Of a DNA stretch of 64,000 bases, positions 1 to 55,335 are shown in pieces (within the stretch, counting starts at the first letter, position 1; every line of letters starts with the position of its first letter). Both the position numbers and the translations under genes were made by a program. This DNA comes from Holophagae bacterium (GTDB lineage Bacteria > Acidobacteriota > Holophagae > Acanthopleuribacterales > Acanthopleuribacteraceae). Location of the stretch: NCBI GenBank assembly GCA_029263455.1, contig JAJCXM010000038.1:248001-312000 (forward strand), in the 5' to 3' direction. The notes under the pieces are model-generated. The model was not told where the DNA came from and did no database searches. It saw only the letters and a program-made list of their open reading frames with translations.

Positions 1-478
1 GCGACTGATCGGCATCGATCTGCAACATCACAGCAGCCAATTCCACTTGCGCGGCGACCAGCTGTGGATCGTCTTCTAACAGGGCTGTTAGCATTTGCTT
101 TGCTTGTTCATAGTTTCCGTCACGTCGTTGCTCGGCGGCTTGGCAGAGTCGCTCTTTCAGTGGATTGGGTAGGTGTTCCTCGAGCCAAGCCAAAACGCTG
201 CTCTTTGGCAAAGACCCGGTGAATTCTGCCGCTACTTCTCCCTTAACAACCAGTTTGACTGCTGGAATTCCAGCCACGCGATATTTCGACGCCACGTCAG
301 GTTGTTGGTCCGTATCGATTTTTACCAGACGAAAACGGCCGTTGCTTTCAGCTTCAACCTGGTCGAGCACGGGACCCAACGTGCGGCAGGGTCCGCACCA
401 AGGTGCCCAGAAGTCAACTAGAATCGGGGTATGATGACTCGCTTCGAGTACGTCTTTCTCGAGGTCGATAACGCTCAT
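1..478 (-). CDS. Thioredoxin-domain protein with TPR-like tail (CnoX/YbbN-like), 3' end outside window
   Basis: Reading the minus strand from the ATG at 478-476 gives MSVIDLEKDVLEASHH, then a thioredoxin fold with the active-site motif WCGPC around residue 31 and the cis-Pro region GIPAVKL. After the thioredoxin domain the sequence continues into a helical stretch (LCQAAEQRRDGNYEQAKQML) typical of the TPR-like tail of CnoX/YbbN co-chaperones. Those proteins bind unfolded or oxidised clients in the cytoplasm and can hand them to chaperones. A GGAGTGAAA sequence lies directly before the ATG. The gene runs off the left edge, so the full tail is unseen. It is transcribed divergently from signal peptidase I. 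A plain thioredoxin is less likely because coding continues about 50 residues past the domain. Confidence 0.85.
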   Translation of the reverse strand, partial: MSVIDLEKDVLEASHHTPILVDFWAPWCGPCRTLGPVLDQVEAESNGRFRLVKIDTDQQPDVASKYRVAGIPAVKLVVKGEVAAEFTGSLPKSSVLAWLEEHLPNPLKERLCQAAEQRRDGNYEQAKQMLTALLEDDPQLVAAQVELAAVMLQIDADQS

Positions 479-583
479 TTTCACTCCAGATGGCCCAAAA
501 AGAGGTCTAAGCATACAAGAAAAAAGAGCCATTCCCAAAACCTAGGGCCATCGGCTTACGTTTTTGATAGAATGACTTGTGTT

Positions 584-9542: not shown

Positions 9543-10277
9543 TCATAGTTGGGTTCGGTGAAACAGAAATCGTGGCACGCAGCGAATTATGAGCATAATC
9601 CAACGCCAGAACCAGGGTAAATAGACCACGGATCTGCCTGCGTCGATGGCATTCACCAGCGACTTGGCGATCGTTTCAGGTTCAACAAATAGGAAACCCT
9701 GTTTCAAATGGGCCGTCATGGGCGTGGCAACAAATCCTGGCCGAATGTCGGTAACACTGACGTCCTTGCCGTGCAGTTGGTGTTGGATACCTGCTAATAA
9801 AATGCTGAGACCACCTTTCGCGCTGCCGTAGATATTGTTACTCTGGCGGCCGCGTTCGCCGGCTACGGATGTAATGACGCCAAGACGACCTTTTTCCTGA
9901 CTCCTCAACAACTTGAGTAAGCGTAGCGTTAACAGAGCCGGACTATTGAAATTAGTTGTCCATTGCTGTTCAGATTGATTAATGTCATTTTCACAAGCTC
10001 GTTGGTCGGGTAAAGAGCCATGTGCGATCAATGCTCGATCAACGACGGAAAAATGCTGATTAATCTCGGCGAATAGTTGGTCATGTTGATCGGTTGCTGC
10101 CAAGTCAAAAACCTTGTACGTCACGTTACTTTGCGTACGTGTAGCTAAGTCGTGAGTCACAGCTACCAGTTTCTCTTGACTGCGAGCAATCAGCAGCAAT
10201 TTGTCTCCACGTTTTGCCCACACCTGTGCTGCTGCCTGCGCGATAGCTGAGGTGGCTCCGAATATAACCACATTCAT
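9543..10277 (-). CDS. SDR oxidoreductase, DprE2-like (2'-keto polyprenyl-P-pentose reductase)
   Basis: A 244-aa short-chain dehydrogenase. The N-terminus MNVVIFGATSAIAQ is the NAD(P)-binding glycine-rich loop. The active site shows TSVAGERGRQSNNIYGSAKGG with Ser, Tyr and Lys in SDR spacing. From memory this resembles the SVAGER-RxSN-YGSxKAGL stretch of mycobacterial DprE2, which reduces decaprenylphosphoryl-2-keto-ribose to arabinose using NADH. The ATG overlaps the TGA of the upstream DprE1-like gene (ATGA), so the two are translationally coupled. A hydrophobic tail (FWRWIMLIIRCV) suggests membrane association near the polyprenyl substrate. Confidence 0.85.
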   Translation of the reverse strand: MNVVIFGATSAIAQAAAQVWAKRGDKLLLIARSQEKLVAVTHDLATRTQSNVTYKVFDLAATDQHDQLFAEINQHFSVVDRALIAHGSLPDQRACENDINQSEQQWTTNFNSPALLTLRLLKLLRSQEKGRLGVITSVAGERGRQSNNIYGSAKGGLSILLAGIQHQLHGKDVSVTDIRPGFVATPMTAHLKQGFLFVEPETIAKSLVNAIDAGRSVVYLPWFWRWIMLIIRCVPRFLFHRTQL

Positions 10278-11575
10278 ACTGATGACTCCTCTTGTGTGAC
10301 GCGTTTCCAAAAGGACGAGTTAATGGCGGGATCTAAGAATTTGTTCATTTCTGTCCATCGAGGATAACTAGTTTGAAAACATTGTGCAGACATGCGGGCG
10401 TCCTTGGCCGGATAGAGCCGTCCGTTGTGCTGGAGCACATAATCGTCTAGCTCATTAAGAACCTTAAAAGCGTTAGTTGAGACAGGGATATCCATTGTCA
10501 GAGTAAAGCCAGACTTGGGAAACGAGAGCAATCCTTGTTGAGGCTGTGGACCGAATTCCTTGAGCACCGACAAGAACGAATACAAATGATCGGACACAAA
10601 ACGTTCCAAAATATGCGCGATCCCGTCCAGGTCAGGTAATACCACCTGATATTGCATAAACCCGCGCTCTCCATATAGCCGGTTCCAGTTGCCTATGGCA
10701 TCCAACGGATAGAAAAAGGAGTCAAAATTTTGTCGACCCTGCCAGGATTGGCGCAATTGCTGGCGATAATAGAGTTGATTGAATGTCTTAATGCTCCAAC
10801 GATTGAGTAACAGGTTTGGCGCAAGCACAGGGATGTTAATTTTAGCTTTCGAAAGAAAGGGAGCTTGCGGACGCTTGTCCACAGCGTGATTGCCTCGCAT
10901 GAATAAACCTCGACCTAACTTGCGCCCTTTCGACGCCGCATCAATCCAGGCGACCGTATATTCAAAATCTTGATCGGAAGCGCGTGTTAACCGTAAGAAT
11001 TCGGTTAGATTTCGAAAGCGAAGCCGCTCGAGATTAATCCAGACGCCTTCAACCGACTTAAGTTGCAATTCCACCCATAGAATGATGCCAGTTAATCCCA
11101 ATCCGCCAACCGTGGCTTCAAACCACTCGGCATTTTCATTTGCAGAACATTCTCTGACAGTCCCATCGGATCGCAGCAAAGCGAATCTTGTCACGTGCTT
11201 GGCAAAAGTGCCTGATCGGTGGTGGTTCTTGCCATGAATATCATTTGCCACAGCACCGCCAAGGGTGACGAATTTGGTTCCTGGCGTGACTGGCAGAAAC
11301 CAGCCGCAAGGTAGAGCAATCTGAATTAGATCATAAAGGCTGATACCAGCTTCGCATCGAAGCAACCCGGATTCGCGGTCGAAAGCTATCATGCGATTCA
11401 TCGAAGACATGCAGGTGACTCGGGCCTGATCGTGTAAACAAACATCTCCATAGCTACGACCGAGTCCCACCGCTAGTGTGGGTTGCTGCTTGAAACTGTT
11501 TCCTGCTTCGTGCTGCCAAAATACACGGTCCAGGGATTGCTGTGTCTTAGGGTATCGGCCCCAACTCTCCCACAT
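10274..11575 (-). CDS. FAD-binding oxidase, DprE1-like (polyprenylphosphoryl-ribose 2'-oxidase)
   Basis: A 433-aa flavoprotein of the VAO/PCMH fold. The FAD-binding stretch has GLGRSYGD, PGTKFVTLGGAVANDIHGKNHH, then TVGGLGLTGII. These match DprE1, which oxidises the C2 hydroxyl of decaprenylphosphoryl-beta-D-ribose. The C-terminal substrate domain has RGFMQYQVVLP and LYPAKDAR, whose Lys corresponds to the essential DprE1 lysine. The position taken by the benzothiazinone-reactive Cys387 in M. tuberculosis appears to be Thr (GFTLTMDIP). The start is ATG 11575, sharing one base with the stop of the HAD-UbiA gene (TGATG). A longer frame to 11734 would run inside that gene. It acts with the DprE2-like reductase downstream. 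Confidence 0.87.
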   Translation of the reverse strand: MWESWGRYPKTQQSLDRVFWQHEAGNSFKQQPTLAVGLGRSYGDVCLHDQARVTCMSSMNRMIAFDRESGLLRCEAGISLYDLIQIALPCGWFLPVTPGTKFVTLGGAVANDIHGKNHHRSGTFAKHVTRFALLRSDGTVRECSANENAEWFEATVGGLGLTGIILWVELQLKSVEGVWINLERLRFRNLTEFLRLTRASDQDFEYTVAWIDAASKGRKLGRGLFMRGNHAVDKRPQAPFLSKAKINIPVLAPNLLLNRWSIKTFNQLYYRQQLRQSWQGRQNFDSFFYPLDAIGNWNRLYGERGFMQYQVVLPDLDGIAHILERFVSDHLYSFLSVLKEFGPQPQQGLLSFPKSGFTLTMDIPVSTNAFKVLNELDDYVLQHNGRLYPAKDARMSAQCFQTSYPRWTEMNKFLDPAINSSFWKRVTQEESSV

Positions 11576-13023
11576 CAAAGGGACCCAAGCATGACAACCA
11601 GGACAAAAACGCCCACTAAATAACTTGCCGGATCGCGAAATGCGTAAACTAATGGGTCTTCCAACATGAGTCCTCGTTGAGCCTTTAGCCACACTCTTGA
11701 GAGCCAATAGATTAGAGCGGGACAAATAAGCCAAATCCCAAAAGGATTGTTATAGAGCTCATTGACTCCTGGACTATTGATATAGAGGGCAAGAACTAGT
11801 ACGGATATGTAGCCGTTGGAAATACCCATAACGCTTAACATGGGGCCATCGTTGATGTGGTAGCCGCGTCCGGCTGTTTGTACACGATTGGTTGTTTTGA
11901 GATGGTGGATCTCAGCAAAGCGCTTAAGTACAGCGAGTGATAGGAAGAAGAACAACGCAAAAGCTAGAAGCCACGGCGATATGGGTGTTGAGGTCGCTGC
12001 GCCCCCGGCCAACACACGTAACGTGAACAGACCCGCCAAAGTGATGACGTCAACCATGGCCAGCTGCTTAAGTACAAGGCTGTAAATAAGGGTAACGATG
12101 CCATATGTAACTAGATAACCTCGAAACTCGCTTGGTAGCCAGAGTGACAAGGTTAACGAAGACGCAAGGCATGAAATGGCAATCGTCAGTCCGGCCCATA
12201 TTGGAATGACCCCGCTGGCCATGGGTCGTGCTTTCTTGAGGTGATGCTGTCGATCGGCTTCTAGATCGACAAGGTCGTTGATCAAATACACGGCAGAGCT
12301 GGTTAACGAAAAACTCAGAAATGCTAGGCAGGCACTTAGCCAGGGCTGCAAATCGCTAAAGATGTGAGCCGTAACCAGAGGCACAAAAACAAGCGCATTC
12401 TTTGCCCAATGATGTGGACGCATGGCGCGGATTGCATGTTTAAAGCGATGTTGCTCCAGTGGCCAATAAATGGCGTGTGAATGCTTGAGCTGTCGCAGGC
12501 TACTAACGCCACGCGCGCCTATGGCCACCGCCGTTTTCGCTTCCTTCCAGATGGCTTGGTCGGCCTTGCTATCGCCTATGTATAGGAAGGGTTCTTGATC
12601 ACAATCGTCCCGGATCGCTTGTGCCTTTTTTCGGGCCTTAAGATTGAGATTGTTGTCACTGGCCAGCACGCAGTCGAAGACGTGATGTCTTTCGGCGACC
12701 GCCGTGGCTACTTTTACATTTGCAGCCGTTGCCATGACGATACGATGACCTGCCCGGCGACGTTCCTGCAGCCAGTCAACTAAATCTATCCGGAAAGGTA
12801 GGAGCTTGAAGTTAATTTGACCCCATTCGGCCAGTTTCGCTTTGATTCGTTGGCGACCTGAGAATAAAAGGATGGGCAACAGCATTAATAGCCAAGGTCG
12901 CTGTTTAAAGACAACCGCCACACACTCCCACATCGTGTCGCAAGGTGTTAAGGTTCCATCTAAGTCGACATAAATATGATGAGGTAGTTGATCTGCGGAC
13001 GCTATCAGTTTCTCGGTGACCAT
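11575..13023 (-). CDS. HAD phosphatase-UbiA prenyltransferase fusion (DPPR synthase-like)
   Basis: A 482-aa fusion. Residues 15-190 form a HAD domain: YVDLDGTLTP (nucleophile Asp20, Asp22), then MATAANVK and IGDSKADQAIW. Residues 196-482 form a UbiA membrane domain with RPHHWAKNALVF and the first Asp-rich motif NDLVDLEAD (249-257). The RP-x-x-W-x-KN sequence is characteristic of 5-phosphoribosyl-1-pyrophosphate:polyprenyl-phosphate transferases such as Rv3806c. I infer that UbiA makes polyprenyl-P-5-phosphoribose and the HAD domain removes the 5-phosphate, feeding DprE1/DprE2. The start ATG at 13023 directly abuts a perfect palindrome at 13024-13039 and has no visible ribosome site. Confidence 0.86.
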   Translation of the reverse strand: MVTEKLIASADQLPHHIYVDLDGTLTPCDTMWECVAVVFKQRPWLLMLLPILLFSGRQRIKAKLAEWGQINFKLLPFRIDLVDWLQERRRAGHRIVMATAANVKVATAVAERHHVFDCVLASDNNLNLKARKKAQAIRDDCDQEPFLYIGDSKADQAIWKEAKTAVAIGARGVSSLRQLKHSHAIYWPLEQHRFKHAIRAMRPHHWAKNALVFVPLVTAHIFSDLQPWLSACLAFLSFSLTSSAVYLINDLVDLEADRQHHLKKARPMASGVIPIWAGLTIAISCLASSLTLSLWLPSEFRGYLVTYGIVTLIYSLVLKQLAMVDVITLAGLFTLRVLAGGAATSTPISPWLLAFALFFFLSLAVLKRFAEIHHLKTTNRVQTAGRGYHINDGPMLSVMGISNGYISVLVLALYINSPGVNELYNNPFGIWLICPALIYWLSRVWLKAQRGLMLEDPLVYAFRDPASYLVGVFVLVVMLGSL

Positions 13024-52452: not shown

Positions 52453-52558
52453 TGCGCTTCCAAACCCTTAGCCTCATGTAGTCAGCATACTCGAAAGCAG
52501 GCTCGAGGTCGAGTTTGGCACTTGCTATGGCATAATGGGGCCTTGTTTAGGAGTAAAC

Positions 52559-53344
52559 ATGTTTAACCAGAAGCGGGTCGTGGTAGTTATGCCTGCCTTT
52601 AATGCGGAGCGCACCCTGAAACGTACCTACGACGAAGTCATGGAACAGGGCGTCGTCGATCACATTATTTTGGTAGATGATGTAAGTAGCGACAGCACAG
52701 TTGAATTGGCCAACAACCTTAAAGACGTAACCGTCATCGTGCATGAGCGTAACCGTGGCTACGGTGGAAACCAGAAAACATGTTATCAAGCCGCGTTGCA
52801 AGCAGGCGCGGACATTGTGGTTATGGTACATCCAGATTATCAATATACGCCTAAACTGATTCCATCCATGGTCGCATTGATCGGCAACGGACTATACGAT
52901 TGTGTTTTGGGGTCGAGAATCTTAGGCGGGCATGCGCGTCGACAGGGTATGCCTGGGTGGAAGTATTTGGCAAATCGCTTGCTGACCCTTACTGAGAATC
53001 TGATGATCGGCGCGAAACTCTCTGAATACCACACCGGCTATCGAGCGTTTTCTAAGACTTTATTGCAGAATTTGGCGCTTGAACACAACTCCGACGATTT
53101 CGTTTTTGATAATCAAATGTTGCTGCAGATCCATTGGACGGGCGCGTTCATCGCCGAAATTAGCTGCCCAACAAAGTATTTTGCAGAAGCTTCGTCGATT
53201 AATTTTAGACGTAGCGTGATTTATGGATTTGGCTGCCTGATAACAGCACTCGACTTTTGCCTGTGTCGTTGGCGCTTCAAGAAGAGTCGACGTTTCCCGG
53301 AGGATTTGTGCGGGAACCTGAGGCCACACCTAGAATCCAACTAG
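52559..53344 (+). CDS. Glycosyltransferase family 2
   Basis: A 261-aa GT-A enzyme from ATG 52559 after AGGAG. It has VVVMPAFNAERTLKRTY, LVDDVSSDST (donor binding), VHERNRGYGGNQKTCY and VMVHPDYQYTPKL in place of the classic DxD, then GSRILGGHARRQGMP. No TM helix is clear. The closest functional relatives are undecaprenyl- or dolichyl-phosphate sugar transferases and other GT2. It overlaps the downstream TMTC-like gene by 37 nt, so it may make the lipid-linked sugar used by it. Confidence 0.86.
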   Translation: MFNQKRVVVVMPAFNAERTLKRTYDEVMEQGVVDHIILVDDVSSDSTVELANNLKDVTVIVHERNRGYGGNQKTCYQAALQAGADIVVMVHPDYQYTPKLIPSMVALIGNGLYDCVLGSRILGGHARRQGMPGWKYLANRLLTLTENLMIGAKLSEYHTGYRAFSKTLLQNLALEHNSDDFVFDNQMLLQIHWTGAFIAEISCPTKYFAEASSINFRRSVIYGFGCLITALDFCLCRWRFKKSRRFPEDLCGNLRPHLESN

Positions 53345-55335
53345 GACAGGCTTTGACGTTTAGATGGCTTTCGTGCCTATTGGTTTTGGCCGTTCTAGCG
53401 GCTTATTTGCCTTTGGCTCAAAATGATTTTATCCACTTTGACGATGGCGATTATGTTTTCGCAAACCAGGTGGTCGTTCAAGGGCTGACATGGGAAGGTA
53501 TTGCCTACGTATGGCAACATCCCATGATCGACAACTATCACCCATTAACCATGATGTCTCACATGTTAGATGTCAGTCTGTTTGGGTTGAACGCGAGATA
53601 CCACCACATGGTGTCTCTGCTTTGGCATTTGCTGGTAGTTTGGTTGTGGTTCTATGTGCTCTCGAAATGGACAGGCCAAAGAGACCTCGCTTTTGTCGTT
53701 GCCTTGTTGTTTGGTGTCCATCCAATTAATGTTGAAACGGTGGCTTGGGTTTCTGAGCGCAAGAGTCTGTTAAGTACTTTTTTTCTGCTGATCACGTTGC
53801 TAGGTTACCAACGCTGGATGAAAAAGCGCCACTGGAAAGACTTTGTGCTGCTCCATTTATCCTTTGCAGCGGGGCTACTTTGTAAAGCTATGATCGTGAC
53901 ATTGCCCTTCTGTTTATTGCTTATCGATATTTGGCCCTTGCGAGGTCGTAGCGACTGGTCGTTTAAACGTCTTGCCAAGCTTGTAACAGAAAAATCGATC
54001 CTAATCTTAATGGCTCTGGGCATGAGCCTATTGACGCTGTTAATCCAGACTGAGTCGGCTAGTTCAGGTAGAGCTATGCTCGAACGGCTTTTTCACATGC
54101 TAGCGAGCTTTGCCATTTATATAGGCAAGCTTATTTGGCCGCATCCATTAGTTGTGATGTATCCATATGAATCACAAGGCTTTCTGATCGCGCTGATCGG
54201 TTTCTTGATTTTCGCACTGGGGACAACCGCTTTACTGATGCGACGCAAACACATATTGCTGATCGCATGGTTCTGGTTTTTAGGCGTGCTGATACCTGTA
54301 TCGGGTATTGTGCCTATTGGCTACCACCTCGTGGCAGATCGATACCTATATCTGGCTATGATTGGCTTTTGGGCGGTGCTGGTATGGATTACGTGTTCTC
54401 CTTCCGGCGGGAAGGCACCTGTTCTCTGGCATGGAGGTCACCAACGCCGCCATATCACTAAAACTGTTAGTCAACGCTTGAAGTCCCACATCGAAAAGCG
54501 ACCAATCAGTGTTCGTGGAACCAAAGTATTGAGGCTGGGCTTGTTCAACGGTTGGATGATTCGGCTTTGGCTGCTGGTCTCCTTGCTTTTTGCGGGAAAG
54601 ACGTTCACACAAACGCAGCTCTGGAAAGACTCAAACACAATATTTCCTTATACACTTCAGCACAGTGGTCCCAATCCCGTTATTGCCATTAACTATGTCC
54701 AAACCCTGCTGAATCAAGGTCACTATCAAGAAGCGGCTCCGTGGCTGAAGAAGTTAGCCGGCTGGTTGCCTGACTCTGCCCGAGTCAAGTCATTGCAAGG
54801 ATGGTGCGACGTTAATCTCGGATCAACCGAACGCGGTATTGACTATCTGAAAGAATCACTCTTAATTAACCCGAACGTCGAATATGGCCTTAACTACCTG
54901 GCCGACGCTTATCGCCTTGCCGGGTTACATTCCCTGGCAGCCGAACAGGATGGAGAAATCCTTAAGCGCAATCCTCAGGACACTAACACGCGCATCAAAC
55001 GCGCTATTGCCTTGTCGGAGTCAGGTGATAAAGAGCTGGCTGAAAGTGAATTCATATTAGCCATTCAGTTGGAACCCGGCTCCAGCTTTGCTTGTCTTAA
55101 TTACGCAATCTGGCTAAACCAACAAAATCGTTGGCACGAATCGCTGACCTATTTTGAATTGGCCGATAAACTGAATGCTTCACGTATGAGTCAATTAGGC
55201 TTGGCAACTGCACACCTCGAATTGGAACAATACCAATCGGCTCAAATCATATTGCAAGACCTACTTCGAGATGACCCCAAAGACATGCAGGTGTTGAAGC
55301 TTCTTCAACGAATTAGATCAGAACAGCCGGACTAA
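53308..55335 (+). CDS. TMTC/PMT-like GT-C membrane protein with C-terminal TPRs
   Basis: A 675-aa protein from GTG 53308, four bases after GGAGG (the TTG at 53257 is further inside the GT2 gene). Around ten hydrophobic helices are present, with FIHFDDGDYVFANQ in the first periplasmic loop, the Asp-Asp motif of GT-C transferases, and HPINVETVAWVSERK, typical of TMTC-like bacterial proteins. TPRs follow from about residue 450 (YQEAAPWLKKLAGWLPDSARV and later). It likely transfers a lipid-linked sugar to protein or glycan in the periplasm. It overlaps the convergent sulfurtransferase stop by 4 nt. Confidence 0.85.
   Translation: MREPEATPRIQLGQALTFRWLSCLLVLAVLAAYLPLAQNDFIHFDDGDYVFANQVVVQGLTWEGIAYVWQHPMIDNYHPLTMMSHMLDVSLFGLNARYHHMVSLLWHLLVVWLWFYVLSKWTGQRDLAFVVALLFGVHPINVETVAWVSERKSLLSTFFLLITLLGYQRWMKKRHWKDFVLLHLSFAAGLLCKAMIVTLPFCLLLIDIWPLRGRSDWSFKRLAKLVTEKSILILMALGMSLLTLLIQTESASSGRAMLERLFHMLASFAIYIGKLIWPHPLVVMYPYESQGFLIALIGFLIFALGTTALLMRRKHILLIAWFWFLGVLIPVSGIVPIGYHLVADRYLYLAMIGFWAVLVWITCSPSGGKAPVLWHGGHQRRHITKTVSQRLKSHIEKRPISVRGTKVLRLGLFNGWMIRLWLLVSLLFAGKTFTQTQLWKDSNTIFPYTLQHSGPNPVIAINYVQTLLNQGHYQEAAPWLKKLAGWLPDSARVKSLQGWCDVNLGSTERGIDYLKESLLINPNVEYGLNYLADAYRLAGLHSLAAEQDGEILKRNPQDTNTRIKRAIALSESGDKELAESEFILAIQLEPGSSFACLNYAIWLNQQNRWHESLTYFELADKLNASRMSQLGLATAHLELEQYQSAQIILQDLLRDDPKDMQVLKLLQRIRSEQPD

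Follow-up and report, generated by a model that had tools for sequence, protein, structure and literature searches.

Genes at the locus

The analysed window is a stretch of 64,000 nucleotides from a Holophagae bacterium (contig JAJCXM010000038.1, positions 248,001 to 312,000). Three minus-strand open reading frames are confirmed between positions 9543 and 13023 of this window, and these encode a HAD-UbiA fusion protein, a DprE1-like oxidase and a DprE2-like reductase (Table 1). The HAD-UbiA and DprE1-like genes overlap by 1 nt (TGATG) and the DprE1-like and DprE2-like genes by 4 nt (ATGA), as stated in the original prediction, which described genes coupled by overlaps of 1-4 nt. A longer open reading frame that starts at a TTG codon (11734-10274) is an upstream extension of the DprE1-like frame and lies inside the UbiA gene.

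Table 1. Features of the operon and of the glycosyltransferase and flippase genes considered (window positions unless a contig is named; domains in residues of the fusion protein)
Feature	Position	Strand	Assignment, basis or residues
HAD-UbiA fusion, 482 aa	13023-11575	-	Polyprenyl-phosphate phosphoribosyltransferase and 5'-phosphatase (phosphoribose phosphatase), predicted
HAD domain of fusion	residues ~14-185		D20 nucleophile
UbiA domain of fusion	residues ~195-480		N249, D250, D253, D257, R368, E371
DprE1-like FAD oxidase, 433 aa	11575-10274	-	NF053785 and M. tuberculosis DprE1 structures
DprE2-like SDR reductase, 244 aa	10277-9543	-	Nearest solved relative M. tuberculosis DprE2; Ser137, Tyr150, Lys154
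TPR-bearing GT-C-like protein	53257-55335	+	TPR models, PF13231 at 25.5 bits; outside the pathway assignment
GT-C, 707 aa	C22:267799-269922		Candidate D-Araf transferase
MATE/Wzx-like protein	C22:266380-267792		Candidate flippase, 6 nt from the C22 GT-C

The HAD-UbiA fusion protein

The first protein of the operon matches the NCBIfam HAD-UbiA model NF006088 with 555 bits against a cut-off of 351, and the match pairs residues 14-479 with profile positions 11-477. The domain order is HAD followed by UbiA, a full-length match to the ORF15 / NF006088 type, and both Pfam domains (UbiA, PF01040; HAD, PF12710) exceed their cut-offs. The nearest solved relative is the decaprenyl-phosphate phosphoribosyltransferase of M. 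tuberculosis (8j8j, E=1e-32). All of the expected motifs, N-D-x-x-D-x-x-x-D, R-x-x-E and the HAD nucleophile Asp, are found in the protein, and N249, D250, D253 and D257 are invariant across nine homologues. In Citrobacter youngae ORF15, the residues tested by Kelly et al. (2024) were D18 in the HAD domain and N247, D248, D251, D255, R366 and E369 in the UbiA domain, of which R366 and E369 proved non-essential (PMC11127046). Adding 2 to each of these positions gives the matching residue of the window protein listed in Table 1.

Since the UbiA superfamily is broad and the genome holds four further members, the domain might prenylate some other substrate (a quinone, heme or a secondary metabolite) beside an unrelated oxidase and SDR. 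This reading is highly improbable and is rejected by model scores and the tree: NCBIfam decaprenyl-phosphate phosphoribosyltransferase models give 127-138 bits, whereas models for heme O synthase and 4-hydroxybenzoate prenyltransferase give about 30 or less, and in a small tree (with Rv3806c entered as residues 17-203 only) the domain groups with Rv3806c and the enzymes of relatives, apart from the four paralogues in the genome. It is also opposed by the conservation of the PRPP-site residues and by the presence of DprE1/DprE2 as partners. Clustering of UbiA with enzymes for other substrates had been named in the original prediction as grounds for abandoning it, and the tree shows the opposite placement.

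The epimerase pair and the proposed pathway

The DprE1-like protein aligns with M. tuberculosis DprE1 structures at an E-value of about 7e-79. Its K391 aligns with Lys418 of the mycobacterial enzyme, the catalytic, active-site lysine, and T360 replaces Cys387, the target of benzothiazinones. This DprE1 homologue with its active-site Lys adjoins a DprE2-type SDR carrying Ser-Tyr-Lys, which matches M. tuberculosis DprE2 (21gq_C) at E=6.5e-26. The NCBIfam equivalog cut-offs are reached by neither protein: NF053785 gives 379 bits against a curated cut-off of 500 for the DprE1-like enzyme, and for the DprE2-like enzyme NF053786 gives 164 bits against 250 and NF005489 gives 265 against 267. The DprE1 cut-off is passed in only 5 of the 347 sampled genomes of the phylum.

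The identities of the three enzymes can be assigned with confidence from sequence because of the family models, solved relatives, catalytic residues, the tree and a gene order that is kept in two relatives. With a probability of about 0.85, the three genes form a single translationally coupled operon that produces polyprenyl-phosphoryl-D-arabinofuranose. In the proposed pathway, the UbiA half of the fusion would use PRPP to form polyprenyl-phosphoryl-ribose-5-phosphate, and the fusion's HAD half would strip the 5'-phosphate to leave polyprenyl-phosphoryl-ribose. The DprE1-like enzyme would oxidize this product at C2, and the DprE2-like enzyme would reduce the 2-keto intermediate with inversion to give polyprenyl-phosphoryl-D-arabinose. 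The donor would then be flipped and used by a GT-C transferase at the outer face of the inner membrane. The order of the steps is predicted from characterised families, and the flippase, transferase and acceptor are inferred. This course from PRPP through dephosphorylation to DprE1/DprE2 epimerisation had been anticipated, and the sequence features support it well.

A product other than D-arabinose (ribose itself or another C2/C3 epimer of the polyprenyl-phosphoryl pentofuranose) would follow from a shift in the specificity of the oxidase/reductase pair. That the DprE1 and DprE2 models score under their curated cut-offs would fit such a shift, as would the use of an identical entry step for Ribf or Xylf systems in C. 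youngae (PMC11127046), but the Xylf system employs a GalE-like SDR epimerase (ORF13) instead, and here the operon has both epimerase halves side by side and conserved, and their nearest solved relatives are the mycobacterial pair. We regard such a product as improbable and retain D-arabinose.

Conservation and distribution

A congener (G001; 54/55/54% identity) and a second genus (G004; 46/51/48% identity) have the three genes in the same order. In the congener the operon adjoins the same cystathionine-synthase-like neighbour and therefore looks like a resident chromosomal operon. More distant relatives carry UbiA and HAD as separate genes or have a non-adjacent HAD gene. A search of genome contigs returned distant relatives only, mainly from Bosea, in which the UbiA domain is unfused and adjoins DprE1. 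Among the phylum's 347 sampled genomes, 73 carry DprE1-like genes, often together with DprE2 and with no UbiA gene alongside, and DprE1-DprE2 pairs of this kind are seen in several families (for example at L117, L119 and L132). Downstream of a UbiA-DprE1 pair, two relatives carry a gene of equal length, 607 aa (L053 11858-13681 and L054 12033-13856). The L053 copy, which is the one scanned, matches an MptE-like model (PF01973), and a link to a glycosylation target is possible.

Cell envelope and search for flippase and transferase

LpxC is present in the genome, in line with the original prediction of a likely Gram-negative cell. A complete arn (L-Ara4N) operon, ArnB-ArnC-ArnA-ArnD-ArnT, lies upstream of the window at a distance of about 37-44 kb (L059 7994-14654; G000:C38:203994-210654), and together LpxC and this operon indicate that the cell produces LPS. 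A second ArnT-like GT-C is encoded on the opposite strand, near but outside the arn operon (L059 5011-6795; C38:201011-202795), and is 38% identical to the ArnT of that operon. Sequence makes it very probable that the three genes make membrane-lipid-linked D-arabinose, a sugar donor known chiefly from M. tuberculosis, in an LPS-making bacterium.

No flippase or transferase gene is found in the operon or adjoining it, where the three-component pentofuranose system has a linked MATE-type flippase and GT-C. Of the Emb/Aft-type arabinosyltransferases and the GtrA-type flippase of the mycobacterial arabinan pathway, the genome search covered Emb, AftA and GtrA (PF04602, PF12250 and PF04138), and it gave no homologue of these three. 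The window was originally described as having no arabinosyltransferase. It does hold a GT-C, preceded by a DPM1-like GT2 (52535-53344), but this is of the TPR type and is not favoured as an arabinosyltransferase, and the window offers no specific candidate. These two genes (52535-55335) are probably another polyprenyl-phosphate-sugar glycosylation pair.

The genome search for GT-C arabinosyltransferases that had been suggested as a check gave no Emb or AftA homologue, but it did yield a plausible unlinked GT-C and flippase on contig C22, which we tentatively name as the best partner candidates for the donor of the operon. This GT-C gene stands before the MATE/Wzx-like gene, and GT2, GT4 and WecA-like genes come next. 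The protein has no Pfam match above cut-off, and its profile finds no match among PDB sequences. The GT-C-flippase pair is also present in the congener and in G002, and in the latter a paralogue, a 693-aa GT-C that is 40% identical to the C22 protein over 685 aa, lies directly upstream of UbiA-DprE1-DprE2-HAD. Across the phylum, the C22 GT-C family occurs in 30 of 347 genomes and shares 4 of these with DprE1, where about 6 would be expected. Because the wider family does not track DprE1, its link to the D-Araf donor operon is suggestive only, and the C22 protein remains a candidate rather than a proven partner. In two distant genomes (G129 and G085), both with Rv3806c-like genes, the homologue is preceded by a DPM1-like GT2, so the donor of the C22 GT-C may be a hexose.

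The chance that the donor is instead used by the product of another of the roughly 15 GT-C-like genes, such as the second ArnT-like protein, falls only a little short of even. Fifteen genes in the genome match PMT_2 (PF13231) and two proteins are ArnT-like, one belonging to the arn operon, yet only the C22 family is seen beside DprE1/DprE2 in a relative. The most far-reaching proposal, in which the unlinked chromosomal D-Araf donor operon feeds the undescribed C22 GT-C family to decorate a WecA-initiated surface glycan, is rather unlikely.

Relation to known systems

The HAD-UbiA fusion has been characterised biochemically in C. youngae ORF15 (Kelly et al., 2024; PMC11127046). The O1/O2 system of that organism resembles the window operon in its N-terminal HAD fused to a UbiA-type PPPRS, with catalytic residues at offset 2; it is complete with a MATE-type flippase and GT-C, and Araf-containing glycan systems of this type are accompanied by DprE1/E2 homologues (PMC11127046). 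Its genes, however, lie together in an O-antigen locus making Ribf (O1) or Xylf (O2) (PMC11127046), whereas the window has the donor genes by themselves, with any flippase and GT-C encoded elsewhere. The phosphatase of P. syringae B728a forms a C-terminal fusion (PMC11127046), not an N-terminal one as here. The synthase, oxidase and reductase belong to the same families as those of the mycobacterial DPA pathway (Rv3806c, Rv3807c, DprE1, DprE2), but describing the operon as the mycobacterial route with its phosphatase fused is inaccurate, since mycobacteria use a separate, non-HAD phosphatase, Rv3807c (PMC11127046), and Emb/AftA homologues are absent here.

The novelty implied for a Gram-negative route and a fused phosphatase also gives way to prior work in Citrobacter (PMC11127046), Pseudomonas (PMC12369383) and Azorhizobium (PMC2443382). 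The pilin glycosylation pathway of the Gram-negative Pseudomonas paraeruginosa (PSPA7_6245-6251, TfpW) shares polyprenyl-linked D-Araf in an LPS-making bacterium, and differs in its separate phosphatase and in a GT-C gene that adjoins the pilin gene (PMC12369383). For Azorhizobium, a D-arabinose route was proposed via noeCHOP, whose noeC, noeH and noeO were likened to D-arabinose precursor genes of M. tuberculosis, but these genes belong to a nod operon and act on Nod factors (PMC2443382). The fused first enzyme with its PRPP entry route (PMC11127046) and the pathway in LPS-making bacteria are already published, so the window operon adds a sound but unremarkable further case. Its transferase, apparently unlinked, and its acceptor are less settled than its enzymes.

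Implications

The operon extends a recently defined lipid-linked pentofuranose route to another lineage, one in which DprE1-like genes are common. Both DprE1 and DprE2 serve as drug targets in tuberculosis, so natural homologues without the benzothiazinone-target cysteine are useful comparators. A concrete GT-C/flippase pair is named as a candidate for testing, and if the C22 reading were true, the phylum would gain a hitherto unreported D-arabinose-containing envelope polymer.
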